Assembly (NCBI GenBank): GCA_022482625.1
Contig: JAKVOU010000001.1
Span: forward strand, 248,001-312,000
Length of the DNA: 64,000 nt
Reading direction: 5' to 3'
Source of the DNA: Spirochaetia bacterium
GTDB taxonomy: Bacteria; Spirochaetota; Spirochaetia; Sphaerochaetales; Sphaerochaetaceae
This document shows, in pieces, positions 4,954 to 55,335 of the stretch; position 1 is the first letter of the stretch, and each line of letters starts with the position of its first letter. Position numbers and translations under genes: made by a program. Below the pieces are notes generated by a model. It did no database searches, was not told the DNA's origin, and saw only the letters and a program-made list of their open reading frames with translations.

Positions 4954-5370
4954 TATAATTAAGTGTTAAGGACTCTATCTTTGTAATAGTGTAAGACAAC
5001 TTTTTGTACACGATAATAGGCTTTTAAGAATTATGACAGAACAAAGCCGTAATAGAAAAACAGGCACCCTTGTTGATAGAAGCGGTATACACTTGTGGTA
5101 TAAGTTGCTAAAGATAAGTTCATTGTTTAAATTTTTCTTTTTTGCTCTTTTACCCTTTCTGGCGTGATTTAAGCACTTGAGTAATTTGTATTTTTGAAAA
5201 ACAAAGAAATAATTCAATTTAATATATAACTTTTCTTACAGTTTGAGTTAGTTGTCTATTGTAAATAATGAAAGTTATGACATAATCAAAACTTGAAAAG
5301 AAATCACATGAAGGGGTGTTCCTGTACCTATAAGGAAACACTTCCTTATTGGGTTAAAAGAGGTCCTGCT
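4954..5370. other. Intergenic region between divergent genes
   Basis: A+T-rich DNA that should contain the promoter of the plus-strand lipoprotein. A weak candidate is TTGAGT at about 5242 with TAATGA 17 bases on. A minus-strand frame at 4975-5217 (80 codons, Leu/Lys/Cys-rich, no ribosome site) is considered spurious. Confidence 0.35.
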
Positions 5371-23519: not shown

Positions 23520-23550
23520 CGATAGGGGGCAATATGCTCCCTATCGTTTT
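23520..23550 (+). terminator. Intercistronic hairpin after the binding-protein gene
   Basis: CGATAGGG and CCCTATCG form an 8-bp stem with TTTT after it, 22 bases past the binding-protein stop. It probably attenuates transcription so that more binding protein than permease is made, and protects the upstream mRNA. Confidence 0.6.
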
Positions 23551-23566
23551 AAACCGGGGAATTTCA

Positions 23567-24436
23567 ATGAATCAATCTTCTTTCAACAACAAGTACCTTC
23601 CTTATGTCCTGCTTCTGCCGACGTTTGTTGTACTTGTAATTTTTCTGTTTTATCCTGCCATAGTGACATTCTTGTTGGCTTTCTACAAGGTAAATCCTTA
23701 TACGAGTGCCAGTAAGTTTGCCGGATTGTATAACTTCCGAAAACTTTTTTCCAGCAGCGGGTATCTGCATAGTTTCCTGTTGTCCCTATGGTTCAGCATC
23801 CTTGTAGTGGTCTTGGGACTCGTGGTTTCTCTTGCACTTGCGGTTTTGTTGGACCAAAACCTGAAAGGTTCGAAGATCTACAGGACACTGCTGATATGGC
23901 CGTATGCTCTGTCACCGGCTATTGCAGGAGCCTTGTTCAATTTTTTGTTCAATCCTGCAAATGGAATTGTCTGTTATTTCAGCAAACGCTACACCTGGAT
24001 GACTGAGGGATCATGGGCTTTCTTTGTAGTCGTCCTTGCTGCTACTTGGAAAAACCTTGGATATAACATTGTCTTTTACCTTACAGCTTTGAGGAATGTT
24101 CCTTCTGATTCACTTGAAGCTGCAAGTATCGATGGTGCCGGAGCATGGAAGAGGTTCTTCAAGATTACCCTTGCGTATATTTCACCGACGACATTTTTCC
24201 TGCTTGTCATGAATACGACCTATGCATACTTCTCTTCCTTCGGGCTGATTGATGTGCTTACCGAAGGCGGTCCTGCAGATTCTACCAATATCCTTATTTA
24301 TGAACTTTATAGAGATTTCTTTGTTAATTCAAGAATTGGATTTGCAGCGGCAGAGAGCTTAGTCATGTTTGTCTTGGTCGTCATCATTACTGTCTTCCAG
24401 TTCAGGACAACCGGGCGCAGTGTACATTATCAATAG
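23567..24436 (+). CDS. ABC transporter permease, UgpA/MalF type
   Basis: A 289-residue inner-membrane subunit with six predicted helices. ATG 23567 is chosen because GGGGA precedes it and the hydrophobic first helix (YVLLLPTFVVLVIFLFYPAI) then sits near the N-terminus; ATG 23534 lies inside the hairpin. The EAA loop that contacts the ATPase is EAASIDGAGAWKRFFKITL (~residues 187-205). Conserved WKNLGYNIVFYLTALRNVP and FGLIDVLTEGGP are typical of the carbohydrate-uptake-1 family. It pairs with the downstream permease to form the channel. Confidence 0.9.
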   Translation: MNQSSFNNKYLPYVLLLPTFVVLVIFLFYPAIVTFLLAFYKVNPYTSASKFAGLYNFRKLFSSSGYLHSFLLSLWFSILVVVLGLVVSLALAVLLDQNLKGSKIYRTLLIWPYALSPAIAGALFNFLFNPANGIVCYFSKRYTWMTEGSWAFFVVVLAATWKNLGYNIVFYLTALRNVPSDSLEAASIDGAGAWKRFFKITLAYISPTTFFLLVMNTTYAYFSSFGLIDVLTEGGPADSTNILIYELYRDFFVNSRIGFAAAESLVMFVLVVIITVFQFRTTGRSVHYQ

Positions 24437-34993: not shown

Positions 34994-36298
34994 TCAGATA
35001 CTGAAGTCAAAACGGTAGTTGCCGATCAGGCTGAACTTGTAATTTTCAGATGAACTGTCTTTATAAGCTTCTGCTTTTCCTTCAAGTCCTAGGTTACCGA
35101 CAGTACCTTTGATGTACAAGCTTGTTTCAGTTTCTGTATTTATGAAATAGTCCTTGATTCCATCGTAGGATGGGGTGAATCCAGCAATTTTATCTACAAC
35201 CCCTTCCTGTACAAAGCTACCACCGAAGACGATGTCCTTATATTTGAAACCAAGATCAACAGAAAGCAAGTCTGCTTTATTGGAAACAGACCAACTATCT
35301 GTAGTAAGCGGTACATAGTAACAGGTCTTGAATATGACATTTCTTGTATCGCTGGAGAACTTGACTTCCGGTATCAAAGTGCCTGAATCAGGCGCAGTAA
35401 ACATATCGGATGCATCAACTTCCTTATGGAACATGTTGGTATAGATGGCATTTTGTACATCATAGACGTCATAGCTTGCTCCAAGGCTCAACTGGGTATT
35501 TTCGTAAAATGTCATGCTGAGTCTACCACCGACTACATAGTTCCTGAAGGGATTATTTTCTTCTGCATCAAAGAAATCACTATATACTACCTCAGGATAG
35601 ACCGGCAGATACCCTGTTGCATCGCCTTCGAGGGCAATCTTCAAGGCTCTGTTGTCTATGAAGGTCATATCCAGTCCGACCATAGGATAAAGTTCAGTCT
35701 TTGTCGTAGCTTCAGGACCAGTGACTCTTACGGATGTACCGAAGTCAAGTCGTAGAAGATCAAGGCCTGAATATCTATAGGAACCATAGATGCCACCTAC
35801 CTGAGACTTAGAAGTTGCCGATCGGTAACCAGCCAATGAAAGGTCATCAGCCATTGCAACCAATGATATGGTCGGCGTCGAATATCTTGCTATGGCGTGC
35901 AGCATCGTGTCATCGTTTCCCTGCTGGTCATAAAAGATTGATGAGTCGATTGCAGGGGCATAATGACCACGGGAGATGTCGACATCGAAAATATCGCCAC
36001 GTGTCTGGTAAGTCAAATGGTCAACCAAGGAAGTTGTATAGGCTACATAATCAGAAACGGTTGAAAGTGTATCAGGCTGTACATTGAATGCTGCGGTCGG
36101 GTTTCCTAGGTCATCATAAGAAACTTGAAGCCTGAACCCGAGGGAAAATCCTTTGTAGCTGATATAAGGTTTCAACGTTGCCGTAGCAGGGAATTTCGAA
36201 TTTGACATCTGGCTATCTGTTCCTGTAGCTTTTGCCGTTGCATGGATGTCAAACCCAAGATGAATACTATCATCCTCTTTCTCATTGGTGACGATCAT
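34994..36298 (-). CDS. Outer-membrane beta-barrel domain, probable C-terminus of the upstream protein
   Basis: 434 residues of alternating hydrophobic/polar strands rich in Tyr, Phe and Gly, for example ALKIALEGDATGYLPVYPE and LSMTFYENTQLSLGASYDV. It ends GNYRFDFSI, close to the aromatic end that outer-membrane barrels present to the BAM machinery. It has no signal peptide of its own and begins MIVTNEKEDDSIHLG, overlapping the upstream frame by 17 bases. Removing one base near 36297 fuses it in frame behind EAPATG of the large protein. The simplest reading is one very long secreted protein with a C-terminal barrel, split here by an inserted base. A separate, translationally coupled gene is the alternative. 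Confidence 0.72.
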   Translation of the reverse strand: MIVTNEKEDDSIHLGFDIHATAKATGTDSQMSNSKFPATATLKPYISYKGFSLGFRLQVSYDDLGNPTAAFNVQPDTLSTVSDYVAYTTSLVDHLTYQTRGDIFDVDISRGHYAPAIDSSIFYDQQGNDDTMLHAIARYSTPTISLVAMADDLSLAGYRSATSKSQVGGIYGSYRYSGLDLLRLDFGTSVRVTGPEATTKTELYPMVGLDMTFIDNRALKIALEGDATGYLPVYPEVVYSDFFDAEENNPFRNYVVGGRLSMTFYENTQLSLGASYDVYDVQNAIYTNMFHKEVDASDMFTAPDSGTLIPEVKFSSDTRNVIFKTCYYVPLTTDSWSVSNKADLLSVDLGFKYKDIVFGGSFVQEGVVDKIAGFTPSYDGIKDYFINTETETSLYIKGTVGNLGLEGKAEAYKDSSSENYKFSLIGNYRFDFSI

Positions 36299-39200
36299 TA
36301 CCGGTGGCAGGTGCTTCAGATTCGTTTTCGTTTTTCTCCGATGGTGTTACAGCATTTTCTGTTTCAACAGCTGCCTGTTTTGTGACCGTCGCCATAGCAG
36401 GTTTACCAGAAACTGATGTTGCCTGTTCAGGCTGTTCAACGACAATTATCTGTCCTGGCACTGCAGGTACTTTTGCGCTGATGACCGGGTTTTTCAATGT
36501 CGGTACTTCAGGCGTACTCTTCACCGTCCCGATGCCAAGCCCTGCAAGATAGGACTTCACCTGGGCATCCTCCGACACCTGGGCTAACCCATATGTTTTG
36601 GCCAGCTTGCTGGAGGCCATGTCGTCCACGTCGGCCTTGCCGATGAGCGTCGGCGTGGTGGCGGCAAGCCTGCCGTCCTTCACTGTGATGTCCACCAGCG
36701 CCACGTCCTGCAGGCCTTCCCCGGTCGCCACATAGGAAGTCGTGCCTATCTGCCTGCTCGAGGCTTCCTCGGATGCTCCGTCTATGAACAGGTCGATGCC
36801 CTTCAGCTTGCTGCAGATGCCGCTGCCGTCAAGCTGCGGCGTGTCCACGTTAGACAGCACGATCACGTAGTCCGCCAGCTTCCTTGCCTCGTCCAGGTAT
36901 GCCTGTGCCTTGCCGACCACCTGCTGGGAGTCGAGCTTCACCCCAAGCGCGTCGGTGACTGCGTTCGGTCCCGTCAGCCCGGTGACCAGCACCCTGTAGC
37001 CGTTGTAGTCGTAGACCTGGTAGGGCTGGAACATGAAGGAGCCGCTCTCGTCCAGCGCGTTGGCGCTGAGCACCGCAGGCCCTCCGGCCTTGCCGCTTGC
37101 AGCCGCAGTGTCCTCCAGTGCCTGGGTTCCGTAGGCGAAGTCCGCAGGTCCCGGCACCATGGCGTCGTAGCCAAGCAGCACGGCAAGCTCCTTCGCCGCC
37201 TTGCCGCTGTCCTTGTTGACCAGGTTGCTCCCGCTGAGGAAGTTGCCTGCGTCCAGCAGCAGGTTGTTGTCCGTGTAGGCCCTGCCTTCCTTCAGCAGTG
37301 AGGCAAGCTTCGCGATGTCCATGCCGCCCGCAGCCCCGCGCGTGTTGCCCGTGGCTGCCACATAGATATCGAAGTCCTTTGCAAAGGTATTGCTTTTCAC
37401 TATCGGTTTGATACCGTAGGGAAGTATCTGAGCTTCAAATTTTTCCCGTTCGTCCAGAAGGTTGGAAACGGTCTGTTTTGCTTCAAATTTTTTGATTGCC
37501 ATCGGTTCTCCGGCGAAAGTCGGAGCTGCCGGAACTTTTGGTACTGTTACTGTGGCTTTTCCCATCGTCGGTGCCTCAGGAGTACTTTTCACCGTCCCGA
37601 TGCCAAGCCCTGCAAGATAGGACTTCACCTGGGCATCTTCCGACACCTGGGCTAACCCATATGTTTTGGCCAGCTTGCTGGAGGCCATGTCGTCCACGTC
37701 GGCCTTGCCGATGAGCGTCGGCGTGGTGGCGGCAAGCCTGCCGTCCTTCACTGCGATGTCCACCAGCGCCACGTCCTGCAGGCCTTCCCCGGTCGCCACA
37801 TAGGAGGTCGACCCTATCTGCCTGCTCGAGGCTTCCTCGGATGCTCCGTCTATGAACAGGTCGATGCCCTTCAGCTTGCTGCAGATGTCGCTGCCGTCAA
37901 GCTGCGGCGTGTCCACGTTGGACAGCACGATCACATAGTCTGCCAGCTTCCTTGCCTCGTCCAGGTATGCCTGTGCCTTGTCGACCACCTGCTGGGAGTC
38001 CAGCTTCACCCCAAGCGCGTCGGTGACTGCGTTCGGTCCCGTCAGCCCGGTGACCAGCACCCTGTAGCCGTTGTAGTCGTAGACCTGGTAGGGCTGGAAC
38101 ATGAAGGAGCCGCTCTCGTCCAGCGCATTTGCGCTGAGTACCAAAGGTCCCCCTGCCTTGCCGCTTGCAGCCGCAGTGTCCTCCAGTGCCTGGGTCCCGT
38201 AGGCGAAGTCGGCAGATCCCGGCACCATGGCGTCGTAGCCAAGCAGCACGGCAAGCTCCTTCGCCGCCTTGCCGCTGTCCTTGTTGACCAGGCTGCTCCC
38301 GCTGAGGAAGTTGCCCGCGTCCAGCAGCAGGTTGTTGTCCGTGTAGGCCCTGCCTTCCTTCAGCAGTGAGGCAAGCTTCGCGATGTCCATGCCGCCCGCC
38401 GCCCCGCGCGTGTTGCCCGTGGCCGCCACATAGATATCGAAATCCTTTGCCGTGGTATCACTCTTTGCTATAGGCTTGATACCATAGGGGAGTGCCTCCT
38501 GTTTTGTTGCCGATTGAGTCTGAACGGCGGCACTTGGCGTATGTGTCGGTTCAGAGATTGTAGGTTCTGCAGGTACTGCTTTTTCTTTTGCAGTTGCTGT
38601 AGTTGTTTTCAGTGTCGGTGCCTCAGGCATGCTCTTCACCGTCCCGATGCCAAGCCCTGCAAGATAGGACTTCACCTGGGCATCTTCCGACACCTGGGCT
38701 AACCCATATGTTTTGGCCAGCTTGCTGGAGGCCATGTCGTCCACGTCGGCCTTGCCGATGAGCGTCGGCGTGGTGGCGGCAAGCCTGCCGTCCTTCACTG
38801 TGATGTCCACCAGCGCCACGTCCTGCAGGCCTTCCCCGGTCGCCACATAGGAGGTCGACCCTATCTGCCTGCTCGAGGCTTCCTCGGATGCTCCGTCTAT
38901 GAACAGGTCGATGCCCTTCAGCTTGTTGCAGATGTCGCTGCCGTCAAGCTGCGGCGTGTCCACGTTGGACAGCACGATCACATAGTCCGCCAGCTTCCTT
39001 GCCTCGTCCAGGTATGCCTGTGCCTTGTCGACCACCTGCTGGGAGTCCAGCTTCACCCCAAGCGCGTCGGTGACTGCGTTCGGTCCCGTCAGCCCGGTGA
39101 CCAGCACCCTGTAGCCGTTGTAGTCGTAGACCTGGTAGGGCTGGAACATGAAGGAACCGCTCTCGTCCAGCGCATTTGCGCTGAGTACCAAAGGTCCCCC

Positions 39201-40639
39201 TGACTTGCCGCTTGCAGCCGCAGTGTCCTCCAGTGCCTGGGTCCCGTAGGCGAAGTCCGCAGGTCCCGGCACCATGGCGTCGTAGCCAAGCAGCACGGCA
39301 AGCTCCTTCGCCGCCTTGCCGCTGTCCTTGTTGACCAGGCTGCTCCCGCTGAGGAAGTTGCCCGCGTCCAGCAGCAGGTTGTTGTCCGTGTAGGCCTTGC
39401 CTTCCTTCAGCAGTGAGGCAAGCTTCGCGATGTCCATGCCGCCCGTAGCCCCGCGCGTGTTGCCCGTGGCTGCCACATAGATATTGAAGTCCTTTGCCGT
39501 GGTATCACTCTTTACTATAGGCTTGATACCGTAGGGAAGTACTTCCTGTTTTGTAGCTGTGGCCGCTGTACTTTTTTGTTTTGCCGTAGTTTCTACGGGT
39601 TCAGTCTCTTGACTTGCGTTTGCTTGGGGTTTGGTTTCCGTAGAAATTGTTTCCGTTGATGATGCAGCAGTTTCAGGTGTTGGAAGCACAGTTTTTTCAG
39701 TCACCTGAGGTTGGGCTTCTTCGCTGGCAGCAGCAGGTTGTGTTGTTGCAGCTGCAACCTCTGTTTTCTCCGTTGTCTGAGGTTGGGATTCGCTGGCAAC
39801 TGTTTCCATGGATGCTGTTGTTGCCTTTGAGGCAACCTGTAGGGATTCGGTCCCTGTCGTGGCAGATTGCTGTGTGCTGGCAGCAATAACACCTGTCGTT
39901 GCTGCACCTGCAACAAATGCCAAAGCTGCTCCACTGGCAGATTTTTCTTCCGAGACCGTTGCAACGGTTTCAGGCTTTGTCTGCGTAGCCTTCATAGCCG
40001 AAATATATTGCGTTGTCGGAAGGCTTGTGATGTCTTCCTCTGAAGATGCAAGGAATGCATGTTCCTTGAACTGTGTCTGTGTAATAGCTTGGGTTTGGCT
40101 TGTGTTTGCAGACATATCGACAAGTTGGAGCTTTTCTACCTGAGCCTTTCGTTTTGTAATGTCATTGTAGGAATTGATAGATCCTTGGAAGACCTGTGCA
40201 CTTTCATCATCTTCTGTCGAACTTACCAGGAAAGCGCCGCTTCCTTTCATTTCATAGGATGAGACAGGTGTCTTGACAGTCACGGTACCGCTGTAGCTTT
40301 TGCTTGTCTGGATGGTAAGTACACCATCGACAAGGTAAAGTACAGGGACGATCCTGCTGGACTGACTTGACGACGAGGAGAGAATCACCTGTGAGGGTAA
40401 CAGTTCCGAACGGAGTGACAAAGCTCCATCCTGCAGCACCCGATCTTACGATGGTGTCAGGTTTTAAATTTGCAATCGTAAGTGACTGAATATCCAGACG
40501 CTTTGCCCTGACTGTCATATACAGTCAACCCCTTGGCAGTATTTTCCTGTAAAGGTGCAGAACCTTCTGCCGCAAAAAGTGCCGGAGCTGTCAGAGCAGC
40601 CAATAGTAATGCGCAAGTTTTCTTGGTAGTAGTTGACAT
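36282..40639 (-). CDS. Giant FecR-like protein with three degenerate 5'-nucleotidase-like repeats
   Basis: The secreted product starts at 40639 (signal peptide KKTCALLLAALTAPALFAAE). A FecR-like beta domain follows (TIVRSGAAGWSFVTPFGTVT, VPVLYLVDGVLTIQTS), but two extra bases near 40506 and 40381 shift the frame; repairing both gives a continuous domain. Next is a ~250-residue Thr/Ala/Gln/Glu-rich linker. Three repeats of ~300 residues come next, each starting LPYGIKPI and ending YLAGLGIGTVKS. They follow the order of UshA-type phosphoesterases (GGMDIAKLASLLKEG, NLLLDAGNFLSGS, LGYDAMVPGPADFAYG), yet the metal-binding D-x-H, GD and GNHE residues are replaced. They therefore probably bind rather than hydrolyse. 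A short acidic tail leads to the barrel at 34994. Confidence 0.75.
36523..37424 (-). repeat. Tandem repeat copy 3 (C-terminal) of the phosphoesterase-like unit
   Basis: 902 bases almost identical to copies 1 and 2 and clearly richer in G+C than the linkers around them. It differs at few sites, for example GPAVLSANALDE and QVVGKAQAYLDE here. Confidence 0.9.
37591..38492 (-). repeat. Tandem repeat copy 2 of the phosphoesterase-like unit
   Basis: 902 bases aligned without gaps to copies 1 and 3. The start-to-start distance to copy 3 is 1068 bases and to copy 1 is 1047; the length difference lies in the unrelated linkers. Confidence 0.9.
38638..39539 (-). repeat. Tandem repeat copy 1 (N-terminal) of the phosphoesterase-like unit
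   Basis: 902 bases, the copy nearest the Thr-rich linker. It shares most silent positions with the other two, which indicates recent duplication or ongoing gene conversion. Confidence 0.9.
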
Positions 40640-40716: not shown

Positions 40717-42045
40717 TCATCGTCCGTCGTTACTTTGATACCTACTGGTAAATACCTGCATATGGTAGACGATGCCGCAGCTCGCTTTTATCTCTGTATT
40801 ACGTAAAGTTGTCAGGCCGGTGACAAAGTCCTCGTCCATGTCAGGATAATCCTTTTTGTATGAGACGGTAAAGTCCTTGAATATGGCAACCTGCTTGTTG
40901 ATTTTTGCACTGCCCGTGATACCATAGGAAGTGAACTCCAGATCTTCGATGGTAGAGGTTGCCTTGAACTGGAAGTAAGTCAAGCCATTGTTGCTGGTGT
41001 AGCCGAAATTACCTGAGAGAATCATATCATCAGTAAATACCGGCAAAGCAGTATTGGTAACCATATCCAGCAGATTTCCGCCGAATGAATCATCAGCAGT
41101 TACTTCCTTTACCAAAGTCCTGAGGTGAGCATTGTAGCTGATCGTATTGAACAACCAGCCACCAAGGCCTACTTGCCAAGACAAGTCACGTATGCTGTCG
41201 TCATAGACAAGGGATTCGTCCTCATACTGGACAACGGTACTGAGCATATCATAGTAGAGATTGAGTGTTGTACCATTTTTATTGAACAGCCCCTGGGTCA
41301 GGTCGATGCAGTAATCCTGCATTAGGGTACCGGTAGAATACAACACATCAGGGTCGCTATCTACGCTGTCCCCCTCTTTGTAATGTTTTGCATTCAGCAG
41401 TGAAAAACCTACTTCAAGGTCACTGAGAAGCGGTACTGCAGTCATCTTCAGTGGTTTCACATAAATGCGACCGCCGAACAGAAGAGGGGTGAATAAATCA
41501 TCAGTAAGGATTTCTCCGCCAAGATAATCAAAATTAAATGCCCTGCCGTCTAAGCTAAGTGTAAGGCCAGGCTTGCTTTCAAAGGTACCTACGCTGTAGT
41601 CAGTGTAGGAATCCACCAAAGCTCCGTCATGCAGTGAGGCATCAATGAGTTTTCCAAAATGGAAATGGAACGGGTCTGTATGGCTCCCATAGACGATGTA
41701 GTTGATGAACTGCAGATAATGGCCTGCATTGAGCAGGATATAATCCTGTTCACTCATGTCGTCCGTCTTTTCAATAGGTTGGTACGTACTTTCATCAACT
41801 TGCAGTTCATTGTCAACAAAACCGATGTTGACAGGCAATCTCAATTCAATGGTGGCTTTCCCGATTGAAAAAGAAGGCAACGCAACTATGGAAACAGGAT
41901 ATGAATTGGTTTCGCTGTTTCCCTCCAGATCTGTATCTGAATTGTTGAATGTTACTCCCATATCCAGATTGAATGCAAAGACCGAAGCTGTTGAGGCAGC
42001 AAATACTATTGCAGAGGAAATGATGCTTTTGAAAAGTTTTTTCAT
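40717..42045 (-). CDS. Outer-membrane barrel-like protein
   Basis: A 442-residue exported protein with signal peptide KKLFKSIISSAIVFAASTASVFA. The mature part consists of amphipathic, aromatic-rich strands (e.g. KPGLTLSLDGRAFNFDYLGG, LSGNFGYTSNNGLTYFQFKA) separated by acidic loops, which suggests a porin-like beta barrel. No named family was recognised. The C-terminus (CGIVYHMQVF) has aromatic residues near but not at the end. It lies 77 bases upstream of the giant FecR-like gene on the same strand, so the two surface proteins are probably co-transcribed. GGAAGA precedes the ATG. Confidence 0.72.
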   Translation of the reverse strand: MKKLFKSIISSAIVFAASTASVFAFNLDMGVTFNNSDTDLEGNSETNSYPVSIVALPSFSIGKATIELRLPVNIGFVDNELQVDESTYQPIEKTDDMSEQDYILLNAGHYLQFINYIVYGSHTDPFHFHFGKLIDASLHDGALVDSYTDYSVGTFESKPGLTLSLDGRAFNFDYLGGEILTDDLFTPLLFGGRIYVKPLKMTAVPLLSDLEVGFSLLNAKHYKEGDSVDSDPDVLYSTGTLMQDYCIDLTQGLFNKNGTTLNLYYDMLSTVVQYEDESLVYDDSIRDLSWQVGLGGWLFNTISYNAHLRTLVKEVTADDSFGGNLLDMVTNTALPVFTDDMILSGNFGYTSNNGLTYFQFKATSTIEDLEFTSYGITGSAKINKQVAIFKDFTVSYKKDYPDMDEDFVTGLTTLRNTEIKASCGIVYHMQVFTSRYQSNDGR

Positions 42046-44803: not shown

Positions 44804-44821
44804 TCTGTTCTTTTTTTCCAT

Positions 44822-45733
44822 CTACTTGTTTGAGGAGAGTGCGTAGCCGTTCATGAAGGCGTTGTAGAGCAGTGCGAAGACCAGCAGCGGGGGGACCATG
44901 GCCAGCACGGCGCCGGCCATCACATGGTTCCACATGATGGAGTCGCCTGCGCTGATGATGGAGTTGAGGCCGACCTGTATGACCTGGTTGGCGTTCTGCC
45001 GTATGACGACCCTGGGCCAGATGTACTGGTCCCAGACGTAGACGAACTGTATGACGGTGAGCGCGCCGATGGTGTTGAGGCTCATGGGCACCAGTATCCT
45101 GGCGAGGAACTGGAGGGAGTTTGCCCCGTCCATCCTTGCCGAGTCGACCAGGGACCTGGGGATGGTGAGGAACTGCTGCCTGAAGAGGAAGACGCCGGTG
45201 GCGGAGGCGAGGAAGGGGAAGATGACGCCCAGCTTGGTGTCGCCCCAGCCGAAGCCGTACTTCGTCGGTGCGAGGAAGAACTCCTTTGGGTTGAACATCC
45301 ACTGCAGCAGTGCCGCCAGGGTGGGGGCGCCCTTGTTGCTCACCAGCTGGAAGAGGCCCAGGATGAGGATCTCGGTGGGGAACATGAGGGTGACGATGAT
45401 GAGGCCGAAGACGACCTTCTTGCCCCTGAAGTCGTAGAAGACGATGGCGGTGGCGGCCAGCAGGGAGAGGACGATCTTGCCCGCCGTGACCCACAGGGAT
45501 ATGAAGAAGCTGTTGCGCATGTACATGCCCAGGTCGTACTGGGTCCACACGGTGCGTATGTTGTCGATGAGGTGGCCGCCCAGCGCCAGCGAGGGGGTGA
45601 TGACGCCCTCCCTGGTCTGCGTGGCCTTGATGATGGCGAAGAGCATGGGGAAGCAGACGAAGAAGCATGCGGCGACCAGCACCACGTGCACCCACGGCCT
45701 GTCCTCCTGCCCCAGGCGTTTCCTATGCGTCAT
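44822..45733 (-). CDS. ABC transporter permease, UgpE/MalG type (copy A)
   Basis: A 303-residue six-helix inner-membrane permease. It starts MTHRKRLGQEDRPW with AGGAGG upstream and overlaps the first permease by 11 bases. The ATPase-contacting loop is DSARMDGANSLQFLARILVP (~residues 195-214), and it ends NAFMNGYALSSNK, matching the permease at 24449. This is the intact version: a run of six G near 44890 keeps the C-terminus in frame, unlike copy B. Confidence 0.9.
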   Translation of the reverse strand: MTHRKRLGQEDRPWVHVVLVAACFFVCFPMLFAIIKATQTREGVITPSLALGGHLIDNIRTVWTQYDLGMYMRNSFFISLWVTAGKIVLSLLAATAIVFYDFRGKKVVFGLIIVTLMFPTEILILGLFQLVSNKGAPTLAALLQWMFNPKEFFLAPTKYGFGWGDTKLGVIFPFLASATGVFLFRQQFLTIPRSLVDSARMDGANSLQFLARILVPMSLNTIGALTVIQFVYVWDQYIWPRVVIRQNANQVIQVGLNSIISAGDSIMWNHVMAGAVLAMVPPLLVFALLYNAFMNGYALSSNK

Positions 45734-46655
45734 AGCTGACCCTCCTTGAGAAGACGCCGAACTGGAAGTAGGACATCAGCAGCACCAGGGCCATGAGGAT
45801 GACGCCCTCGGCTGCGGCGAAGCCCATGTCGCTGCTGCCCCCGAATCCGTCGACGTAGACCTTGTACATCAGCGTGGTGGTCACGCCCACGTTGCCGAAG
45901 GCGCCGGTGCCCACCGGCGCACCCTTGGTCATCACGTCGATGATGCCGAAGGAGTCGAAGAAGGCGTAGGTGAGGTTGGTGAAGGCCAGGAAGAAGGTGG
46001 TGGGGCTGAGCATGGGCATGAGCACGTGCCAGAACCTCTTCCATCCGGTGGCCCCGTCGATCTGTGCGGCCTCGATGGGTTCCCTGGAGACGTTCTGCAG
46101 GGCGGCCAGGTAGAAGACGATGTTGTAGCCCAGGTTCTTCCACACGGCGGCGCCTATGGTCACGGCGAAGGTGAGCTTGGGGTCGCTGAGCCACAGGGGC
46201 TTTATGCCGAACAGGCGGGAGAGCACGTCGTTGACGATGCCCACCTCCGGGTTGAACATGAAGCTGTAGACGGTGCCTGCCACCGCAGGAGAAAGGGCGA
46301 AGGGCCAGATGAGCAGGATGCGGTAGATCCTCGCCCCGCGGATGTCCTTGTTGGCCTGGATGGCCAGGAACTGGGACAGGACGATGCCGATTGCCAGCAC
46401 CAGGATGCTGTAGATGATGGTCTGCACGAAGCTCTGCAGGAAGCCGGGTGCCAGCACGCCGGTGAACAGGTTCCTGAAGTTCCGGGTACCGATGAACTTC
46501 CTGGTGCCCAGGAAGAAGTTGCTCCTGTAGAAGGCGAGCACGACCGTCTTCATGGCCGGGTAGTAGATGAACACCAGCAGGATGAGCAGGGTGGGCAGCA
46601 GGTAGAGCCACGCCACCGAGCCCTTCTTGAAGACCTCATGGTCAGACTGCGACAT
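45723..46655 (-). CDS. ABC transporter permease, UgpA/MalF type (copy A)
   Basis: A 310-residue permease with six helices after a cytoplasmic N-terminus (SQSDHEVFKKGSVAWLY). The EAA loop is EAAQIDGATGWKRFWHVLMP; WKNLGYNIVFYLAALQNVS and FDSFGIIDVMTKGAP are conserved. It differs from copy B at a handful of residues, e.g. GTRNFRNLF here against GWQNFRNLF, and ANKDIRG against ANKNIRG. GGGAGG precedes the start. Confidence 0.92.
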   Translation of the reverse strand: MSQSDHEVFKKGSVAWLYLLPTLLILLVFIYYPAMKTVVLAFYRSNFFLGTRKFIGTRNFRNLFTGVLAPGFLQSFVQTIIYSILVLAIGIVLSQFLAIQANKDIRGARIYRILLIWPFALSPAVAGTVYSFMFNPEVGIVNDVLSRLFGIKPLWLSDPKLTFAVTIGAAVWKNLGYNIVFYLAALQNVSREPIEAAQIDGATGWKRFWHVLMPMLSPTTFFLAFTNLTYAFFDSFGIIDVMTKGAPVGTGAFGNVGVTTTLMYKVYVDGFGGSSDMGFAAAEGVILMALVLLMSYFQFGVFSRRVSYDA

Positions 46656-46682
46656 GTGGACCTCCCTTGGGCCGGGCTGTCA

Positions 46683-46710
46683 GAAAACCCGGCCGGCCCG
46701 CAGGCCGGTC
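46683..46710 (-). terminator. Intercistronic G+C-rich hairpin (copy A)
   Basis: CCGGCC and GGCCGG pair around a 4-base loop (8 bp with flanking pairs), followed on the minus strand by CCGGGTTTTC. It lies between the binding-protein and permease genes, as in the first operon. Confidence 0.6.
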
Positions 46711-46732
46711 GGAGCGGACAGCCGGACGGCGC

Positions 46733-48074
46733 CTACTGTATGTTGGCATTGTACTCTGCCAGCTTGGCGTCACTGAGCTTCTTGGCCTCGGCCATGGCCT
46801 GCTGGGGGTCGGTGCCGTTGAGGATCTTCTGCAGCGCCTGCTCGACGATGGTCCTGTTGTCATACACGGAGCCGGCAAGCCCGCCGGCGCTTGCCGCGTT
46901 GACCTTGGTCTGCAGCAGCTGGTTGAAGGCGACAAGCTGCTTCGCGTTGCTGTCGAACCAGCCTTCGGCCTTCAGCTTGTCGATGGAGGACTTGCGCACC
47001 GGGTAGTAGCCGGTGAGCTTGTGCCAGGCCACCATGTTGTCGGTGCCGGTCAGGTACAGGGCGAAGTCCCTGGCTCCCTGCAGTACCCTCGCGTCATCGT
47101 TCTTGGTGACCCACAGCGAGCCGCCGCCGATGACCGTGCCGTTCCTGCCGGTGCCGTCTGGGATGGGGATCATGCCCACGTTCAGCCTGAACTTGGTGCC
47201 GATGGCGTTGGTGATGTTGACGATGTCGGCGGTGGAGGTGATGTGGAACATGGCCTTGCCGCCGGTGAATATGGCGTCGCTGCCGTCCCAGTCCTCGAAC
47301 TTGCCGGTATAGGTGTAGAAGCCCCTGTCACGAAGGTCGGCGTAGAACCGTGCGATCTTCAGGGCCTCGGGGGAGTCGAGCATCGTCTGTGTCGCGCGGG
47401 CGTCGCGGCCGTTGCCGTTGTCGAAGATGCAGGCGTCCTGCTCGCTCATCCACTGCTCGAAGAACCAGCCGTTGAGGCTGACGGAGAAGTTGGCGTCCCT
47501 GACGCCCTTCTTCCTTGCCGCAGGAGAGTGCGGCGAGCACGTCGCCGAAGGTCTTGGGCACGTAGTCGGCAGGGTAGCCTGCGGCCACGAGCATGTCGGT
47601 GTTGATGTAGAGCACGGGGGAGGAGCTGTTGAACGGTATGGAGTTCACCTTCCCGCCGATGGTGTAGTAGTTGAGCACCGGCTGGATGTAGTCGCTGGTG
47701 TCGAAGGTGCCGATGTCGCCCACGGGGGTGAACATGCCGGTGTCATAGGCGAGCTGTGAGCCGGCCTCGGCGATGTGCACCAGGCTGGGGGCGGTGCCCT
47801 GCTTGTAGGCCAGCAGCGCCGCCTGGAGGGTGTCGCGGTAGGAGCCCTTTGTCTCCTCGCTGACGACGTACTTGTCCTGGCTGGCGTTGAACTGCTTCAC
47901 CACGTCCTGTATCCAGCCGCGCCTCTTGGCGTCGCCGAAGGTGTGCCAGAAGGTTATCCTGACGGGGCCTTCCCCCTGGCCTGCGGCGGCAGGGGCTGTC
48001 TCCTGCGTACCATTGGCAAAGAGTGATGAAAAGGCCAGTAGTGAACAAATGAGCACTATACTGATTTTCTTCAT
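46733..48074 (-). CDS. UgpB-like solute-binding protein (copy A), frameshifted
   Basis: Starts at 48074 (GGAGG upstream) with signal peptide KKISIVLICSLLAFSSLFANG, different from that of copy B. The mature part is otherwise the same protein: ITFWHTFGDAKRRGWIQDVV, SIPFNSSSPVLYINTD, IGGGSLWVTKND, MVAWHKLTGYYPVRKS. Near 47521 the sequence GCAGGAGAG replaces GCTGAGAG of copy B, adding one base. The frame then diverges after VLAALS and a downstream frame carries the rest. If real, copy A makes no functional binding protein; if an error, the protein is 446 residues. Confidence 0.82.
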
Positions 48075-48133
48075 TGTTTCCTCCATTGAATTTTCTTTTT
48101 GTTCGATTTCAGAATGGATGAAACAAGTTAAGA

Positions 48134-50308: not shown

Positions 50309-50631
50309 TTCCGTCATCTCCTGTCTGCATGCAACATTCCGCCGTTTTCCGTATTACATCATTTATATAGTACAGGAAAAGGAGCCTATGCTATCGTTCA
50401 TGACAGTGGCAATACTGGGAAAATGGAATCTGTTGCCGGAATAATCTTCGGTTGTCTGTCTTTTCCTACTGTAACCGATAAGCAACCATCATGCAAGGAG
50501 AGGAAGCAAAATGTCACCTCTGTGATGTTCGTTACAATAAGAAAGACTATGTCCGTTCCGGATGCAACTTGCATAGCTGTCAGGATGGACATAGCCTTGC
50601 GCAATGTATGATACGGTTATGTTTTTCTTTT
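50309..50631. other. Intergenic region between ppk and operon copy B
   Basis: About 320 bases holding the ppk promoter, probably including TATATAAA near 50370 on the minus strand. Plus- and minus-strand frames here are short, Cys- or Ser-rich and lack ribosome sites. Nothing else was recognised. Confidence 0.4.
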
Positions 50632-50632
50632 T

Positions 50633-51545
50633 CTACTTGTTTGAGGAGAGTGCGTAGCCGTTCATGAAGGCGTTGTAGAGCAGTGCGAAGACCAGCAGCG
50701 GGGGGGACCATGGCCAGCACGGCGCCGGCCATCACATGGTTCCACATGATGGAGTCGCCTGCGCTGATGATGGAGTTGAGGCCGACCTGTATGACCTGGT
50801 TGGCGTTCTGCCGTATGACGACCCTGGGCCAGATGTACTGGTCCCAGACGTAGACGAACTGTATGACGGTGAGCGCGCCGATGGTGTTGAGGCTCATGGG
50901 CACCAGTATCCTGGCGAGGAACTGGAGGGAGTTTGCCCCGTCCATCCTTGCCGAGTCGACCAGGGACCTGGGGATGGTGAGGAACTGCTGCCTGAAGAGG
51001 AAGACGCCGGTGGCGGAGGCGAGGAAGGGGAAGATGACGCCCAGCTTGGTGTCGCCCCAGCCGAAGCCGTACTTCGTCGGTGCGAGGAAGAACTCCTTTG
51101 GGTTGAACATCCACTGCAGCAGTGCCGCCAGGGTGGGGGCGCCCTTGTTGCTCACCAGCTGGAAGAGGCCCAGGATGAGGATCTCGGTGGGGAACATGAG
51201 GGTGACGATGATGAGGCCGAAGACGACCTTCTTGCCCCTGAAGTCGTAGAAGACGATGGCGGTGGCCGCCAGCAGGGAGAGGACGATCTTGCCCGCCGTG
51301 ACCCACAGGGATATGAAGAAGCTGTTGCGCATGTACATGCCCAGGTCGTACTGGGTCCACACGGTGCGTATGTTGTCGATGAGGTGGCCGCCCAGCGCCA
51401 GCGAGGGGGTGATGACGCCCTCCCTGGTCTGCGTGGCCTTGATGATGGCGAAGAGCATGGGGAAGCAGACGAAGAAGCATGCGGCGACCAGCACCACGTG
51501 CACCCACGGCCTGTCCTCCTGCCCCAGGCGTTTCCTATGCGTCAT
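50633..51545 (-). CDS. ABC transporter permease, UgpE/MalG type (copy B), C-terminal frameshift
   Basis: Identical to copy A through AVLAMVPP, then a run of seven G at 50700-50706, instead of six, shifts the frame. As written the frame continues to 50580 and ends with an unrelated tail (KEKHNRIIHCARLCPS) in place of the last helix and NAFMNGYALSSNK. The coordinates given assume the original stop at 50633. Loss of the final transmembrane helix would probably abolish transport. A mononucleotide run is a typical place both for sequencing error and for real slipped-strand switching. Confidence 0.85.
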
Positions 51546-52467
51546 AGCTGACCCTCCTTGAGAAGACGCCGAACTGGAAGTAGGACATCAGCAGCACCAG
51601 GGCCATGAGGATGACGCCCTCGGCTGCGGCGAAGCCCATGTCGCTGCTGCCCCCGAATCCGTCGATGTAGACCTTGTACATCAGCGTGGTGGTCACGCCC
51701 ACGTTGCCGAAGGCGCCGGTGCCCACCGGCGCACCCTTGGTCATCACGTCGATGATGCCGAAGGAGTCGAAGAAGGCGTAGGTGAGGTTGGTGAAGGCCA
51801 GGAAGAAGGTGGTGGGGCTGAGCATGGGCATGAGCACGTGCCAGAACCTCTTCCATCCGGTGGCCCCGTCGATCTGTGCGGCCTCGATGGGTTCCCTGGA
51901 TATGTTCTGCAGGGCTGCCAGGTAGAAGACGATGTTGTAGCCCAGGTTCTTCCACACGGCGGCGCCTATGGTCACGGCGAAGGTGAGCTTGGGGTCGCTG
52001 AGCCACAGCGGCTTTATGCCGAACAGGCGGGAGAGCACGTCGTTGACGATGCCCACCTCCGGGTTGAACATGAAGCTGTAGACGGTGCCTGCCACCGCAG
52101 GAGAAAGGGCGAAGGGCCAGATGAGCAGGATGCGGTAGATCCTCGCCCCGCGGATGTTCTTGTTGGCCTGGATGGCCAGGAACTGGGACAGGACGATGCC
52201 GATGGCCAGCACCAGGATGCTGTAGATGATGGTCTGCGCGAAGCTCTGCAGGAAGCCGGGGGCCAGCACGCCGGTGAACAGGTTCCTGAAGTTCTGCCAG
52301 CCGATGAACTTCCTGGTGCCCAGGAAGAAGTTGCTCCTGTAGAAGGCGAGCACGACCGTCTTCATGGCCGGGTAGTAGATGAACACCAGCAGGATGAGCA
52401 GGGTGGGCAGCAGGTAGAGCCACGCCACCGAGCCCTTCTTGAAGACCGCATGGTCAGACTGCGACAT
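51535..52467 (-). CDS. ABC transporter permease, UgpA/MalF type (copy B)
   Basis: 310 residues, intact and nearly identical to copy A, with the same EAA loop and six helices. Differences are conservative (SDHAVFKK, GWQNFRNLF, QNISREPIEA, VYIDGFGG). Overlaps the next permease by 11 bases, as in copy A. Confidence 0.92.
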   Translation of the reverse strand: MSQSDHAVFKKGSVAWLYLLPTLLILLVFIYYPAMKTVVLAFYRSNFFLGTRKFIGWQNFRNLFTGVLAPGFLQSFAQTIIYSILVLAIGIVLSQFLAIQANKNIRGARIYRILLIWPFALSPAVAGTVYSFMFNPEVGIVNDVLSRLFGIKPLWLSDPKLTFAVTIGAAVWKNLGYNIVFYLAALQNISREPIEAAQIDGATGWKRFWHVLMPMLSPTTFFLAFTNLTYAFFDSFGIIDVMTKGAPVGTGAFGNVGVTTTLMYKVYIDGFGGSSDMGFAAAEGVILMALVLLMSYFQFGVFSRRVSYDA

Positions 52468-52494
52468 GTGGACCTCCCTTGGGCCGGGCTGTCA

Positions 52495-52522
52495 GAAAAC
52501 CCGGCCGGCCCGCAGGCCGGTC
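52495..52522 (-). terminator. Intercistronic G+C-rich hairpin (copy B)
   Basis: Same CCGGCC/GGCCGG stem and trailing GGGTTTTC as in copy A, located between binding-protein and permease genes. Confidence 0.6.
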
Positions 52523-52544
52523 GGAGCGGACAGCCGGACGGCGC

Positions 52545-53885
52545 CTACTGTATGTTGGCATTGTACTCTGCCAGCTTGGCGTCGCTGAGCTTCTTGGCCT
52601 CGGCCATGGCCTGCTGGGGGTCGGTGCCGTTGAGGATCTTCTGCAGCGCCTGCTCGACGATGGTCCTGTTGTCATACACGGAGCCGGCAAGCCCGCCGGC
52701 GCTTGCCGCGTTGACCTTGGTCTGCAGCAGCTGGTTGAAGGCGACAAGCTGCTTCGCGTTGCTGTCGAACCAGCCTTCGGCCTTCAGCTTGTCGATGGAG
52801 GACTTGCGCACCGGGTAGTAGCCGGTGAGCTTGTGCCAGGCCACCATGTTGTCGGTGCCGGTCAGGTACAGGGCGAAGTCCCTGGCTCCCTGCAGTACCC
52901 TCGCGTCATCGTTCTTGGTGACCCACAGCGAGCCGCCGCCGATGACCGTGCCGTTCCTGCCGGTGCCGTCGGGGATGGGGATCATGCCCACGTTCAGCCT
53001 GAACTTGGTGCCGATGGCGTTGGTGATGTTGACGATGTCGGCGGTGGAGGTGATGTGGAACATGGCCTTGCCGCCGGTGAATATGGCGTCGCTGCCGTCC
53101 CAGTCCTCGAACTTGCCGGTATAGGTGTAGAAGCCCCTGTCACGAAGGTCGGCGTAGAACCGTGCGATCTTCAGGGCCTCGGGGGAGTCGAGCATCGTCT
53201 GTGTGGCGCGGGCGTCGCGGCCGTTGCCGTTGTTGAAGATGCAGGCGTCCTGCTCGCTCATCCACTGCTCGAAGAACCAGCCGTTGAGGCTGACGGAGAA
53301 GTTGGCGTCCCTGACGCCCTTCTTCCTTGCCGCTGAGAGTGCGGCGAGCACGTCGCCGAAGGTCTTGGGCACGTAGTCGGCAGGGTAGCCTGCGGCCACG
53401 AGCATGTCGGTGTTGATGTAGAGCACGGGGGAGGAGCTGTTGAACGGTATGGAGTTCACCTTCCCGCCGATGGTGTAGTAGTTGAGCACGGGCTGGATGT
53501 AGTCGCTGGTGTCGAAGGTGCCGATGTCGCCCACGGGGGTGAACATGCCGGTGTCATAGGCGAGCTGGGAGCCGGCCTCGGCGATGTGCACCAGGCTGGG
53601 GGCGGTGCCCTGCTTGTAGGCCAGCAGCGCCGCCTGGAGGGTGTCGCGGTAGGAGCCCTTGGTCTCCTCGCTGACGACGTACTTGTCCTGGCTGGCGTTG
53701 AACTGCTTCACCACGTCCTGTATCCAGCCGCGCCTCTTGGCGTCGCCGAAGGTGTGCCAGAAGGTTATCCTGACGGGGCCTTCCCCCTGGCCTGCGGTGG
53801 CAGGGGCTGTCTCCTGCGACCCGTTGGCAAATACAGATGCCGCACCTAAAACCGCACAGAGAACCACCAGAGTGATTTTCTTCAT
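52545..53885 (-). CDS. UgpB-like solute-binding protein (copy B), intact
   Basis: A complete 446-residue binding protein with signal peptide KKITLVVLCAVLGAASVFANG and AGGAGG upstream. The mature part starts SQETAPATAGQGEG and carries the family blocks FWHTFGDAKRRGWIQ, AYKQGTAPSLVHIAEAG, IPFNSSSPVLYINTD, GGGSLWVTKND and AWHKLTGYYP. The DAKRRGWIQDVV segment is typical of this subfamily. Substrate is undetermined: UgpB-like proteins take glycerol 3-phosphate, and relatives take oligosaccharides. An IS110-type element ends about 80 bases upstream, so the native promoter may have been displaced. Confidence 0.92.
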   Translation of the reverse strand: MKKITLVVLCAVLGAASVFANGSQETAPATAGQGEGPVRITFWHTFGDAKRRGWIQDVVKQFNASQDKYVVSEETKGSYRDTLQAALLAYKQGTAPSLVHIAEAGSQLAYDTGMFTPVGDIGTFDTSDYIQPVLNYYTIGGKVNSIPFNSSSPVLYINTDMLVAAGYPADYVPKTFGDVLAALSAARKKGVRDANFSVSLNGWFFEQWMSEQDACIFNNGNGRDARATQTMLDSPEALKIARFYADLRDRGFYTYTGKFEDWDGSDAIFTGGKAMFHITSTADIVNITNAIGTKFRLNVGMIPIPDGTGRNGTVIGGGSLWVTKNDDARVLQGARDFALYLTGTDNMVAWHKLTGYYPVRKSSIDKLKAEGWFDSNAKQLVAFNQLLQTKVNAASAGGLAGSVYDNRTIVEQALQKILNGTDPQQAMAEAKKLSDAKLAEYNANIQ

Positions 53886-53907
53886 ATTTACCTCCTATAA
53901 AAAGTCA

Positions 53908-53927
53908 ATAGTTTCTACGGAAACTAT
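53908..53927. promoter_or_regulatory. Palindrome upstream of operon copy B
   Basis: ATAGTTTC and GAAACTAT are exact inverted repeats around TACG, 23 bases before the binding-protein start. It looks like an operator of a dimeric repressor. Copy A has direct repeats instead, so the two operons appear to be controlled differently. Confidence 0.45.
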
Positions 53928-53966
53928 CAAGCTCCGTTTGTTTTCTCCTCATAGGAGACCTTACCT

Positions 53967-55112
53967 TTAGGCCCCTATGACCTCCTCCGCACTCAGTGAT
54001 CCCCCGACTTCCCTTACCATCAGGGATTCGTCGAACGGCCTCCTGCTGTTCAGGATCGCAAAGATGACCCTCGCCAGCTTACGCGTCGTGGCTATGATGG
54101 ACTTCCCCGACCCCTTCGTCTCCTTCATCCTTCGGTAAGCCACCATCAGCCGCCAGCTGCCCGTCTTCTTGGACAGCCGCAGCATCCCCATCGTCGCCTG
54201 CACCAGCGCCGTGCGCAGCATCTGCGGCCCGTGCTTCGTTATCCTCCCCAGCAGGACCGTGTCGTTCGAGTTGTGTACCGACGGCACCAGCCCCGCATAC
54301 GAGGCAAACTTCCTGAAGTCTCCCCCGAACCGTCCCTGCAGGTCCCCTGCATAGGCCGCGATCGTCATCGCCGTGACCGCGCCGATCCCCGGCACCGTCC
54401 TGAGCAGCGCCACGTCCTCGTTCTCCCCGGCCGTCTCGGCCAGCTGCTTCTCCACTGCCTTGATTTGCTCCGCCAGGTCGTCTATAATGCCGAACAGAAG
54501 CTTGAGCGAAGCGGCGGCGGTCTGCGTGAATCCATGGTCTTCGAGATCTTTCAGCAGTCCCTGCCGCTTCCTCTTGCTCTGCAGCTGGCTGTGCCTCGTG
54601 TCGACCCCGTAGCCGAGCATCATCCCGTGGACCTGGTTCTTCACCTTCACCTGCGTGCTCACCAGGATGCTCCTGGCCTTCAGCAGCCGCCTGGCCTCCT
54701 CGCTCTGCTGGTCGCACAGGTGGCTCTGCGGGAGCATGTCCTTGTACAGGTAGTAGGCCAGCGTCCTCGCGTCGTTCCTGTCGTTCTTGCTCGTGCTCTC
54801 GCTGATGACCTTGAACCTGTTCGTGTTCACCACCGTCACGGCAAAGCCTTCCTTCTCGAACCTGTTCTTGAAGTACCGGGCGTTGCCCGTCGTCTCCACG
54901 GCAAGCCGTACCGGGCAGCCGTATGCCTCCTGCAGGCCATGCAGCCTCGCTGCCAGCTGTCCCAGCCCGTCATGTCCCCTGGTGACGTATGCCTTCTCCT
55001 CCACGGGCCTTTCCTCGTCTCCGTCCGCAAGGACGCATACCGTCACCTGCGTCTTGTGCAGGTCCACGCCTACGTCCAGCCTCTCCGTCCCTTCTTCCAT
55101 GCCGTTTGCCAT
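53967..55112 (-). CDS. IS110-family transposase (DEDD recombinase)
   Basis: A 381-residue protein. ATG 55112 has GAGGAGG upstream; the frame extends further but without family sequence. The N-terminal DEDD RuvC-like domain shows DVGVDLHKTQ (first Asp), VRLAVETTGNARYFK (Glu) and STSKNDRNDARTLAYYL (Asp pair). A coiled-coil-like region follows. The C-terminal transposase_20 domain has LLRTVPGIGAVTAMTIAAYA and FASYAGLVPS with the catalytic Ser. The enzyme cuts and joins DNA guided by an element-encoded bridge RNA in studied members. The frame is intact, so the element could be active. Confidence 0.92.
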   Translation of the reverse strand: MANGMEEGTERLDVGVDLHKTQVTVCVLADGDEERPVEEKAYVTRGHDGLGQLAARLHGLQEAYGCPVRLAVETTGNARYFKNRFEKEGFAVTVVNTNRFKVISESTSKNDRNDARTLAYYLYKDMLPQSHLCDQQSEEARRLLKARSILVSTQVKVKNQVHGMMLGYGVDTRHSQLQSKRKRQGLLKDLEDHGFTQTAAASLKLLFGIIDDLAEQIKAVEKQLAETAGENEDVALLRTVPGIGAVTAMTIAAYAGDLQGRFGGDFRKFASYAGLVPSVHNSNDTVLLGRITKHGPQMLRTALVQATMGMLRLSKKTGSWRLMVAYRRMKETKGSGKSIIATTRKLARVIFAILNSRRPFDESLMVREVGGSLSAEEVIGA

Positions 55113-55335
55113 ATCAGGCCTCCTCGCTTCAGTTTCCGGGCAGGACGGCTTCCGTTCGGTGATTCCTTCCAATCTCCTATCCGGCCTCAGCCGCATCGCT
55201 GCGGCGGACCACTGAGTGATTCGATGTAAACCCTTCCATTCTCCTTTGCGACATCAAGTGCCATTAGATATGCCGGACTTGCATCTCAGCCTTCCTGCCT
55301 GTACCTTCCAGTATAGACCCTCCAGCTCCTAGGTA
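55113..55335 (-). ncRNA. Candidate IS110 bridge-RNA region
   Basis: Non-coding left end of the element, upstream of the transposase on its strand. It contains local inverted repeats, such as GCCGC/GCGGC near 55190-55205, compatible with a folded RNA. Position is from family knowledge; loops complementary to donor and target could not be verified. Confidence 0.35.

Follow-up and report, generated by a model that had tools for sequence, protein, structure and literature searches.

Sharply raised G+C in the near-identical repeats of a degenerate nucleotidase-like domain, and in most other repeated DNA sampled, in a Sphaerochaetaceae genome

UshA-type 5′-nucleotidases and the SoxB thiosulfohydrolase share a metallophosphoesterase fold, and the YfkN-type multidomain nucleotidases (NCBIfam PRK09419 models), named as multifunctional enzymes, have more than one metallophosphoesterase unit per chain. 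A gene on the minus strand of a Sphaerochaetaceae genome (Spirochaetia bacterium, GCA_022482625.1) likewise appears to carry several units of this fold, namely three direct, near-identical repeats of 303 amino acids (aa; 909 nt) each, but the metal motifs are gone from every one of them. The gene lies in a 64,000-nt stretch of contig JAKVOU010000001.1 (positions 248,001–312,000), the whole of which is termed the window below. The guanine-plus-cytosine content (G+C, or GC) is raised sharply inside the repeated blocks while the remainder of the gene shows no such rise, and most of the other repeats sampled from this genome are raised likewise. The closest described process, GC-biased gene conversion, has been proposed for bacteria (PMC4450053) and disputed (PMC8153448, PMC8223754). 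According to the former report, recombining sequence is higher in GC than the remainder of the genome, as in the window genome; that report concerns genes with evidence of recombination across the genomes of species, whereas the present case concerns copies within one genome, with sharp edges.

The initial annotation described three near-identical repeats of 902 bases. They are indeed direct repeats, with 95.6–98.0% identical DNA (18, 36 and 40 pairwise differences per 909 nt), but the unit measures 909 nt by protein register, or at least 936 nt by DNA homology. Further, what was presented as a domain repeat had to be widened: homology to relatives encoded in one frame indicates that the units are one part of a longer protein, whose gene reaches 40639 upstream and 34994 downstream through three frame breaks, an extent first missed. 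The parts of the gene are as follows:

40100..40639, minus strand: gene start and N-terminal domain; ATG at 40639, signal-peptide-like stretch and conserved N-terminal domain (three-frame reading and homology to the N-terminal domains of relatives)
39540..40099, minus strand: low-complexity linker, rich in Thr, Ala, Glu and Gln (third-position GC, or GC3, 0.24–0.44 in most bins)
38631..39539, minus strand: unit 1, predicted degenerate UshA/SoxB-fold domain (DNA repeat block 38606–39557)
38493..38630, minus strand: non-repeated linker joining units 1 and 2 (GC3 0.28)
37584..38492, minus strand: unit 2, predicted degenerate UshA/SoxB-fold domain, the modelled unit (DNA repeat block 37554–38510)
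37425..37583, minus strand: non-repeated linker joining units 2 and 3 (GC3 0.38)
36516..37424, minus strand: unit 3, predicted degenerate UshA/SoxB-fold domain (DNA repeat block 36487–37426)
36282..36515, minus strand: linker after unit 3; stop at 36282–36284, with a frame break to the barrel-like domain in or near 36282–36346
34994..36298, minus strand: C-terminal domain, apparently barrel-like; listed as a separate 434-aa open reading frame, with homology to the C-terminal portions of proteins encoded in one frame at three loci of relatives (L052, L063, L064)

The G+C of the units is 61–62%, against 47–49% in the linkers, and their GC3 is 0.81–0.82, against 0.28–0.39; the earlier description of units alike even at silent sites, with G+C well above that of the linkers, was thus borne out. 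At fourfold-degenerate sites, GC is 0.78 in the units, 0.30 in the linkers and 0.34 in the barrel domain. Along the gene, binned GC3 lies between 0.24 and 0.60 outside the blocks and mostly between 0.80 and 1.00 inside them, the step coinciding with the repeat edges; the outermost 25-codon bins of the blocks are lower (0.48–0.68). Amino-acid make-up was rejected as the cause of this difference, since the fourfold sites differ in every well-populated amino-acid class. In the genome's own paralog of the gene (L036), the repeated block (linker included) has a GC3 of 0.64 per unit, whereas the intact unit of that gene has 0.41. In nine of ten orthologs with a single unit, the GC of the domain is not raised.

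The contrast is not specific to this domain. A first sample of the genome comprised 20 stretches plus the window, L036 and L037 (488 kb), a GC-rich patch being defined as more than 57% GC in 500 bp. It held 12 such patches, nine of which had a copy of at least 75% identity inside the sample. The other three were predicted beforehand to have copies elsewhere, and all three did: one at 99–100% in six places (L163), one at 96–97% in two places (L167), and one copied in pieces at 94–99% in one region (L168). For L165, a stretch of normal GC taken as a control, no near-identical copy turned up, and the longer matches were at 65–76%. With 20 further stretches the sample reached 888 kb and 17 GC-rich patches, of which 16 had another copy, some of them partial. 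For 11, a copy of at least 90% identity lay in the sample and covered about half or more of the patch; two form one pair of 78% paralogs, and the copies of three were found by search. The window and L036 were not chosen blindly; leaving them aside, 10 of 11 patches had another copy, again some partial. Over the 888 kb, GC is 43.8% in unique DNA, 61.8% in DNA with a copy of at least 90% identity, and 0.482 (as a fraction) in DNA with a 70–80% copy. Eleven repeats were compared with their own flanks, and each was higher in GC (mean difference +0.186). Short-unit arrays of about 70% identity are not clearly raised (L162, 0.45–0.50; L222, 0.38–0.41). The 78% paralogs (window 5293–7710 and L154 5142–7826), with CHB_HEX_C, Fn3_assoc and Lcl_C domains, combine intermediate identity with an intermediate GC of about 0.51–0.52 and a core above 0.57.

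The raised repeats are of several kinds: two sets of degenerate domains, a pair of ATP-binding cassette (ABC) transporter clusters, the rRNA operons, transposases of five Pfam types, and an element some 610 bp long or longer (L163:1–610), found at seven places at 99–100%, whose 192-aa frame has no Pfam match. Three of these features stand in the window, at higher coordinates than the repeat gene:

44806..48084, minus strand: ABC transporter cluster copy A, the second of the window's GC-rich repeats (GC 0.621; 98.2% identical to copy B)
50620..53895, minus strand: ABC transporter cluster copy B (GC 0.623)
53970..55253, minus strand: IS110-family transposase frame (GC 0.621)

These features bear on a foreign origin, in which GC-rich donors would have supplied the repeated segments, largely by way of mobile elements, and the segments would have multiplied afterwards, with no need for biased conversion. 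Several of the repeats are insertion sequence (IS) elements of different families, and ABC copy B adjoins one; the end of that IS110-like element (53876–54000, the part queried) recurs at six other places at 82–100% identity. However, the closest relatives of the ABC permease outside the genome, at 61% identity, come from two genomes labelled as the same genus, and by our reading their permeases have a third-position GC of about 0.18–0.19, the strand of the stored locus being allowed for. The rRNA operons and the degenerate units are native by homology, and the GC step falls within one gene, three times. Foreign origin should also produce unique islands, yet just one of the 17 patches has no near-identical copy covering most of it, no 78% paralog and no partial copies longer than 186 bp. 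This origin is therefore considered unlikely. In ABC copy A the solute-binding protein is broken into two overlapping frames of 238 and 252 aa (window 46733–48086), while copy B has one 446-aa frame; a frame break thus occurs in this GC-rich repeat as well.

Codon selection would require the repeated genes to be highly expressed and to favour GC-ending codons. The ABC permease, with a GC3 of up to 0.94, might suggest this; the window holds two paralogous ABC permeases of 48% identity, one single-copy (23534–24436, GC3 0.47) and one duplicated (45723–46655, GC3 0.94). However, the linkers and barrel domain of the repeat gene itself are low, the frames of ribosomal operons are not raised (GC3 only 0.43–0.54), and transposases and non-coding spacers are raised. 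Codon selection was rejected on the ribosomal-operon frames and the spacers, and is hardly credible. The 16S rRNA genes have a GC of 0.640–0.641 in five copies of this genome (L247, L252, L256, L258, L261), compared with 0.537 in genome G001, 0.607–0.613 in G005, G024 and G025, and 0.507 in G042. The rRNA spacers are raised to 0.622 and 0.714, with 0.38–0.39 in the DNA just outside the L226 operon; the 16S–23S spacer without its tRNA has 0.622 in L226 and 0.592 in L247. Growth at high temperature is an unlikely cause of this GC-rich rRNA, given that eight tRNA genes outside the rRNA operons have a GC of 0.46–0.61 and that the spacers are raised too. The 16S sequence is nearer to that of G005 (91%) than to that of G001 (87%), although G001 is labelled as the same genus.

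The initial annotation had left open recent amplification or gene conversion. Recent duplication is insufficient because it explains the likeness of the copies but not a GC shift common to all of them and ending at the repeat edges; uniformity together with the silent-site step at those edges fits conversion. Biased exchange between copies would explain both likeness and GC shift, and would cover non-coding repeats. Gene conversion would exchange tracts between copies, and repair of the mismatches in the joint DNA would favour G or C; over many rounds the copies would stay alike and become GC-rich while the unique linkers remained at the genome level. Silent-site GC is higher in repeated sequence, and non-coding spacers are raised too, copy status serving here as a stand-in for recombination. 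It thus seems probable, though well short of assured, that GC-biased gene conversion between copies keeps the repeats alike and GC-rich. The wider proposition is evenly balanced: that such conversion within the genome is strong enough for repeats of many kinds (domains, transporter operons, rRNA operons with their spacers, IS elements) to form islands of about 56–64% GC in a 44% genome, so that GC alone marks multicopy DNA.

Several observations count against biased conversion. Among the three units, sites at which one copy differs show 22 changes from G or C to A or T and 20 in the opposite direction (majority to odd copy), so that no biased conversion events are seen directly; nor was a mosaic of tracts significant among them (runs test, 47 sites, 23 runs, P 0.14). 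One single-unit ortholog, the sole exception (L051), has a raised domain GC (+0.19). Among the 17 patches, L168 and L237:1–1100 have partial copies only, and the GC-rich ISL3 transposase at L237:5701–7100 matches other places at 95% over just 186 bp, and at 68% over its full extent. The high GC of IS elements could stem from their origin. In G005, a 1.8-kb threefold repeat at 98% identity has a GC of 0.52 in a genome of 0.521 (400 kb sampled). The 16S–23S spacers of G005, G024 and G025 (0.489, 0.521 and 0.538) are not raised, the GC sampled from a single locus each of G024 (11 kb) and G025 (10.5 kb) being 0.507 and 0.476. A family-wide effect is thus not supported by the G005 repeat and the three relatives' spacers; if real, the effect is confined to this lineage or strong in it.

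Another repeat-directed process could also raise GC, namely a bias in mutation, modification or repair that is linked to multicopy DNA and needs no exchange between copies. It fits the tie to repeats equally well, and the lack of a significant mosaic speaks for it. Yet it needs a further reason for the 96–100% likeness of the copies at silent sites, and we know of no such process in bacteria; it is judged quite improbable.

The frame breaks raise a different alternative, that the gene is a decaying pseudogene and its repeats merely a recent tandem duplication. The N-terminal part is spread over three reading frames, with switches near 40465 and 40345, and the C-terminal part resumes the first register; a GTG at 40439, listed as the start, was rejected, the three-frame reading placing an ATG at 40639. 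The three breaks relative to relatives (window 40330–40520 and 36230–36420) run in the same direction and lie outside long homopolymers; they may reflect assembly error, decay or something programmed. Although breaks of this kind would suit a pseudogene, they may be assembly errors; all three units are open, and their codon differences are more often synonymous than non-synonymous (10/8, 20/12 and 26/10 for the three pairs). Duplication, moreover, does not raise GC. This alternative is rated as fairly unlikely.

The sharp GC steps at repeat edges inside a gene offer a direct test of GC-biased conversion with controls built in: linkers of that gene that are unique, orthologs present in single copy and the non-coding spacers of the rRNA operons, with the ABC permease pair as a ready-made paired control. 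If the reading is true, caution is needed before GC-rich repeats are taken for foreign DNA. GC-biased conversion in bacteria has already been proposed and disputed; the G+C contrast is the new point. Among the titles and abstract openings searched, none describes bacterial GC islands produced by conversion within a genome, and the words ‘paralog’, ‘multicopy’, ‘duplicat’ and ‘rRNA’ are absent from the text of PMC4450053.

The repeated domain poses a smaller, separate question, a dead nucleotidase domain being kept beside intact ones in several lineages. An UshA-like fold had been proposed for the units, and the evidence supports it. The repeat frame matched the NCBIfam models for SoxB (E-value 2.6e-53) and UshA-like proteins (1e-47) over three stretches, with scores under the curated cut-offs. 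Modelled from 13 sequences, unit 2 had a mean local confidence (pLDDT) of 84.3 and a predicted template-modelling score (pTM) of 0.89; its best solved structural relatives were SoxB (2wdd, Z 27.6 over 254 residues) and UshA (1ho5, Z 26.6). The replacement of metal ligands in all three copies also held: in the aligned motif columns, none of the five motifs of the two-metal set (DxH, GD, GNH[DE], H and GHxH) is intact in any unit. The three share the replacements TND-x-HG to TGNTRG, GD to GN, GNH[DE]F to G[PS]ADF, LSH to LSN and GHSH to GASE, and in this they differ from UshA and SoxB. The units thus look like a non-catalytic domain of the UshA/SoxB fold, and dead domains of this sort might have a binding or spacer role at the cell envelope.

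Secreted nucleotidases of Sphaerochaetaceae (the paralog L036, and L040, L041, L044 and L050) also contain dead units of this kind, sometimes as two identical ones. L036 itself has two dead units with identical protein sequence and one intact unit; metal motifs are intact in this last unit and in many relatives. Nucleotidases of this type end in an intact unit followed by 5_nucleotid_C, as tested for L036 and L040 (matches at 1e-34 or better), whereas the window gene ends in the barrel-like domain, and its 1385-aa frame has no 5_nucleotid_C match among the Pfam families listed to E 1. Matches of some kind were present in 45 of 61 genomes, this one included, many of them probably ordinary nucleotidases; the species-genome scan gave 78 loci, with titles naming Spirochaetales, Sphaerochaeta and similar spirochaetes. 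Among 104 distinct frames, dead units stand in two layouts: either followed by an intact unit, or as in the window gene. The latter layout is found in 10 other genes, with one unit each. Among the genes compared, triplication is known only in the window gene, copy numbers in relatives being lower bounds because short-read assemblies can collapse tandem repeats.

The loci L052, L063 and L064, labelled as the same genus, each have a single frame in which one dead unit follows an N-terminal domain and is joined by a linker to a C-terminal domain. The window gene is the local version of a Sphaerochaetaceae protein with a dead domain between conserved N-terminal and barrel-like C-terminal domains. 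The N-terminal domain, which we take to be FecR-like, gave no FecR match in Pfam in the window frame, where it is frame-split, or in four relatives of the same layout; in the window it matched no Pfam family. The C-terminal domain is called barrel-like by our reading of a model with many long strands and lacks a Pfam match; the model, built from four sequences (pLDDT 46.4, pTM 0.43), was too poor for a fold search. In a tree of 35 dead and 21 intact domains (56 in all, the intact ones selected by us from more), the window units join the single units of the same genus (90/87), and both join the L036 pair (99/98). Because of the first of these groupings, the window units look native. Dead units form three groups further apart plus one unit in L072, and both layouts occur within two of these groups; long branches meet in this tree, and finer placement is unsure.

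Immediately upstream of the gene lies a conserved neighbour, which L063 and L064 have at the same place and L052 as a fragment:

40717..42045, minus strand: upstream neighbour, 442 aa

Beside the paralog gene, L036 1058–2299 encodes a long Arg/Asp/Gly/Tyr-rich repeat protein with RDDDRGGYGSR-like units, whose DNA repeats are 80–84% identical.

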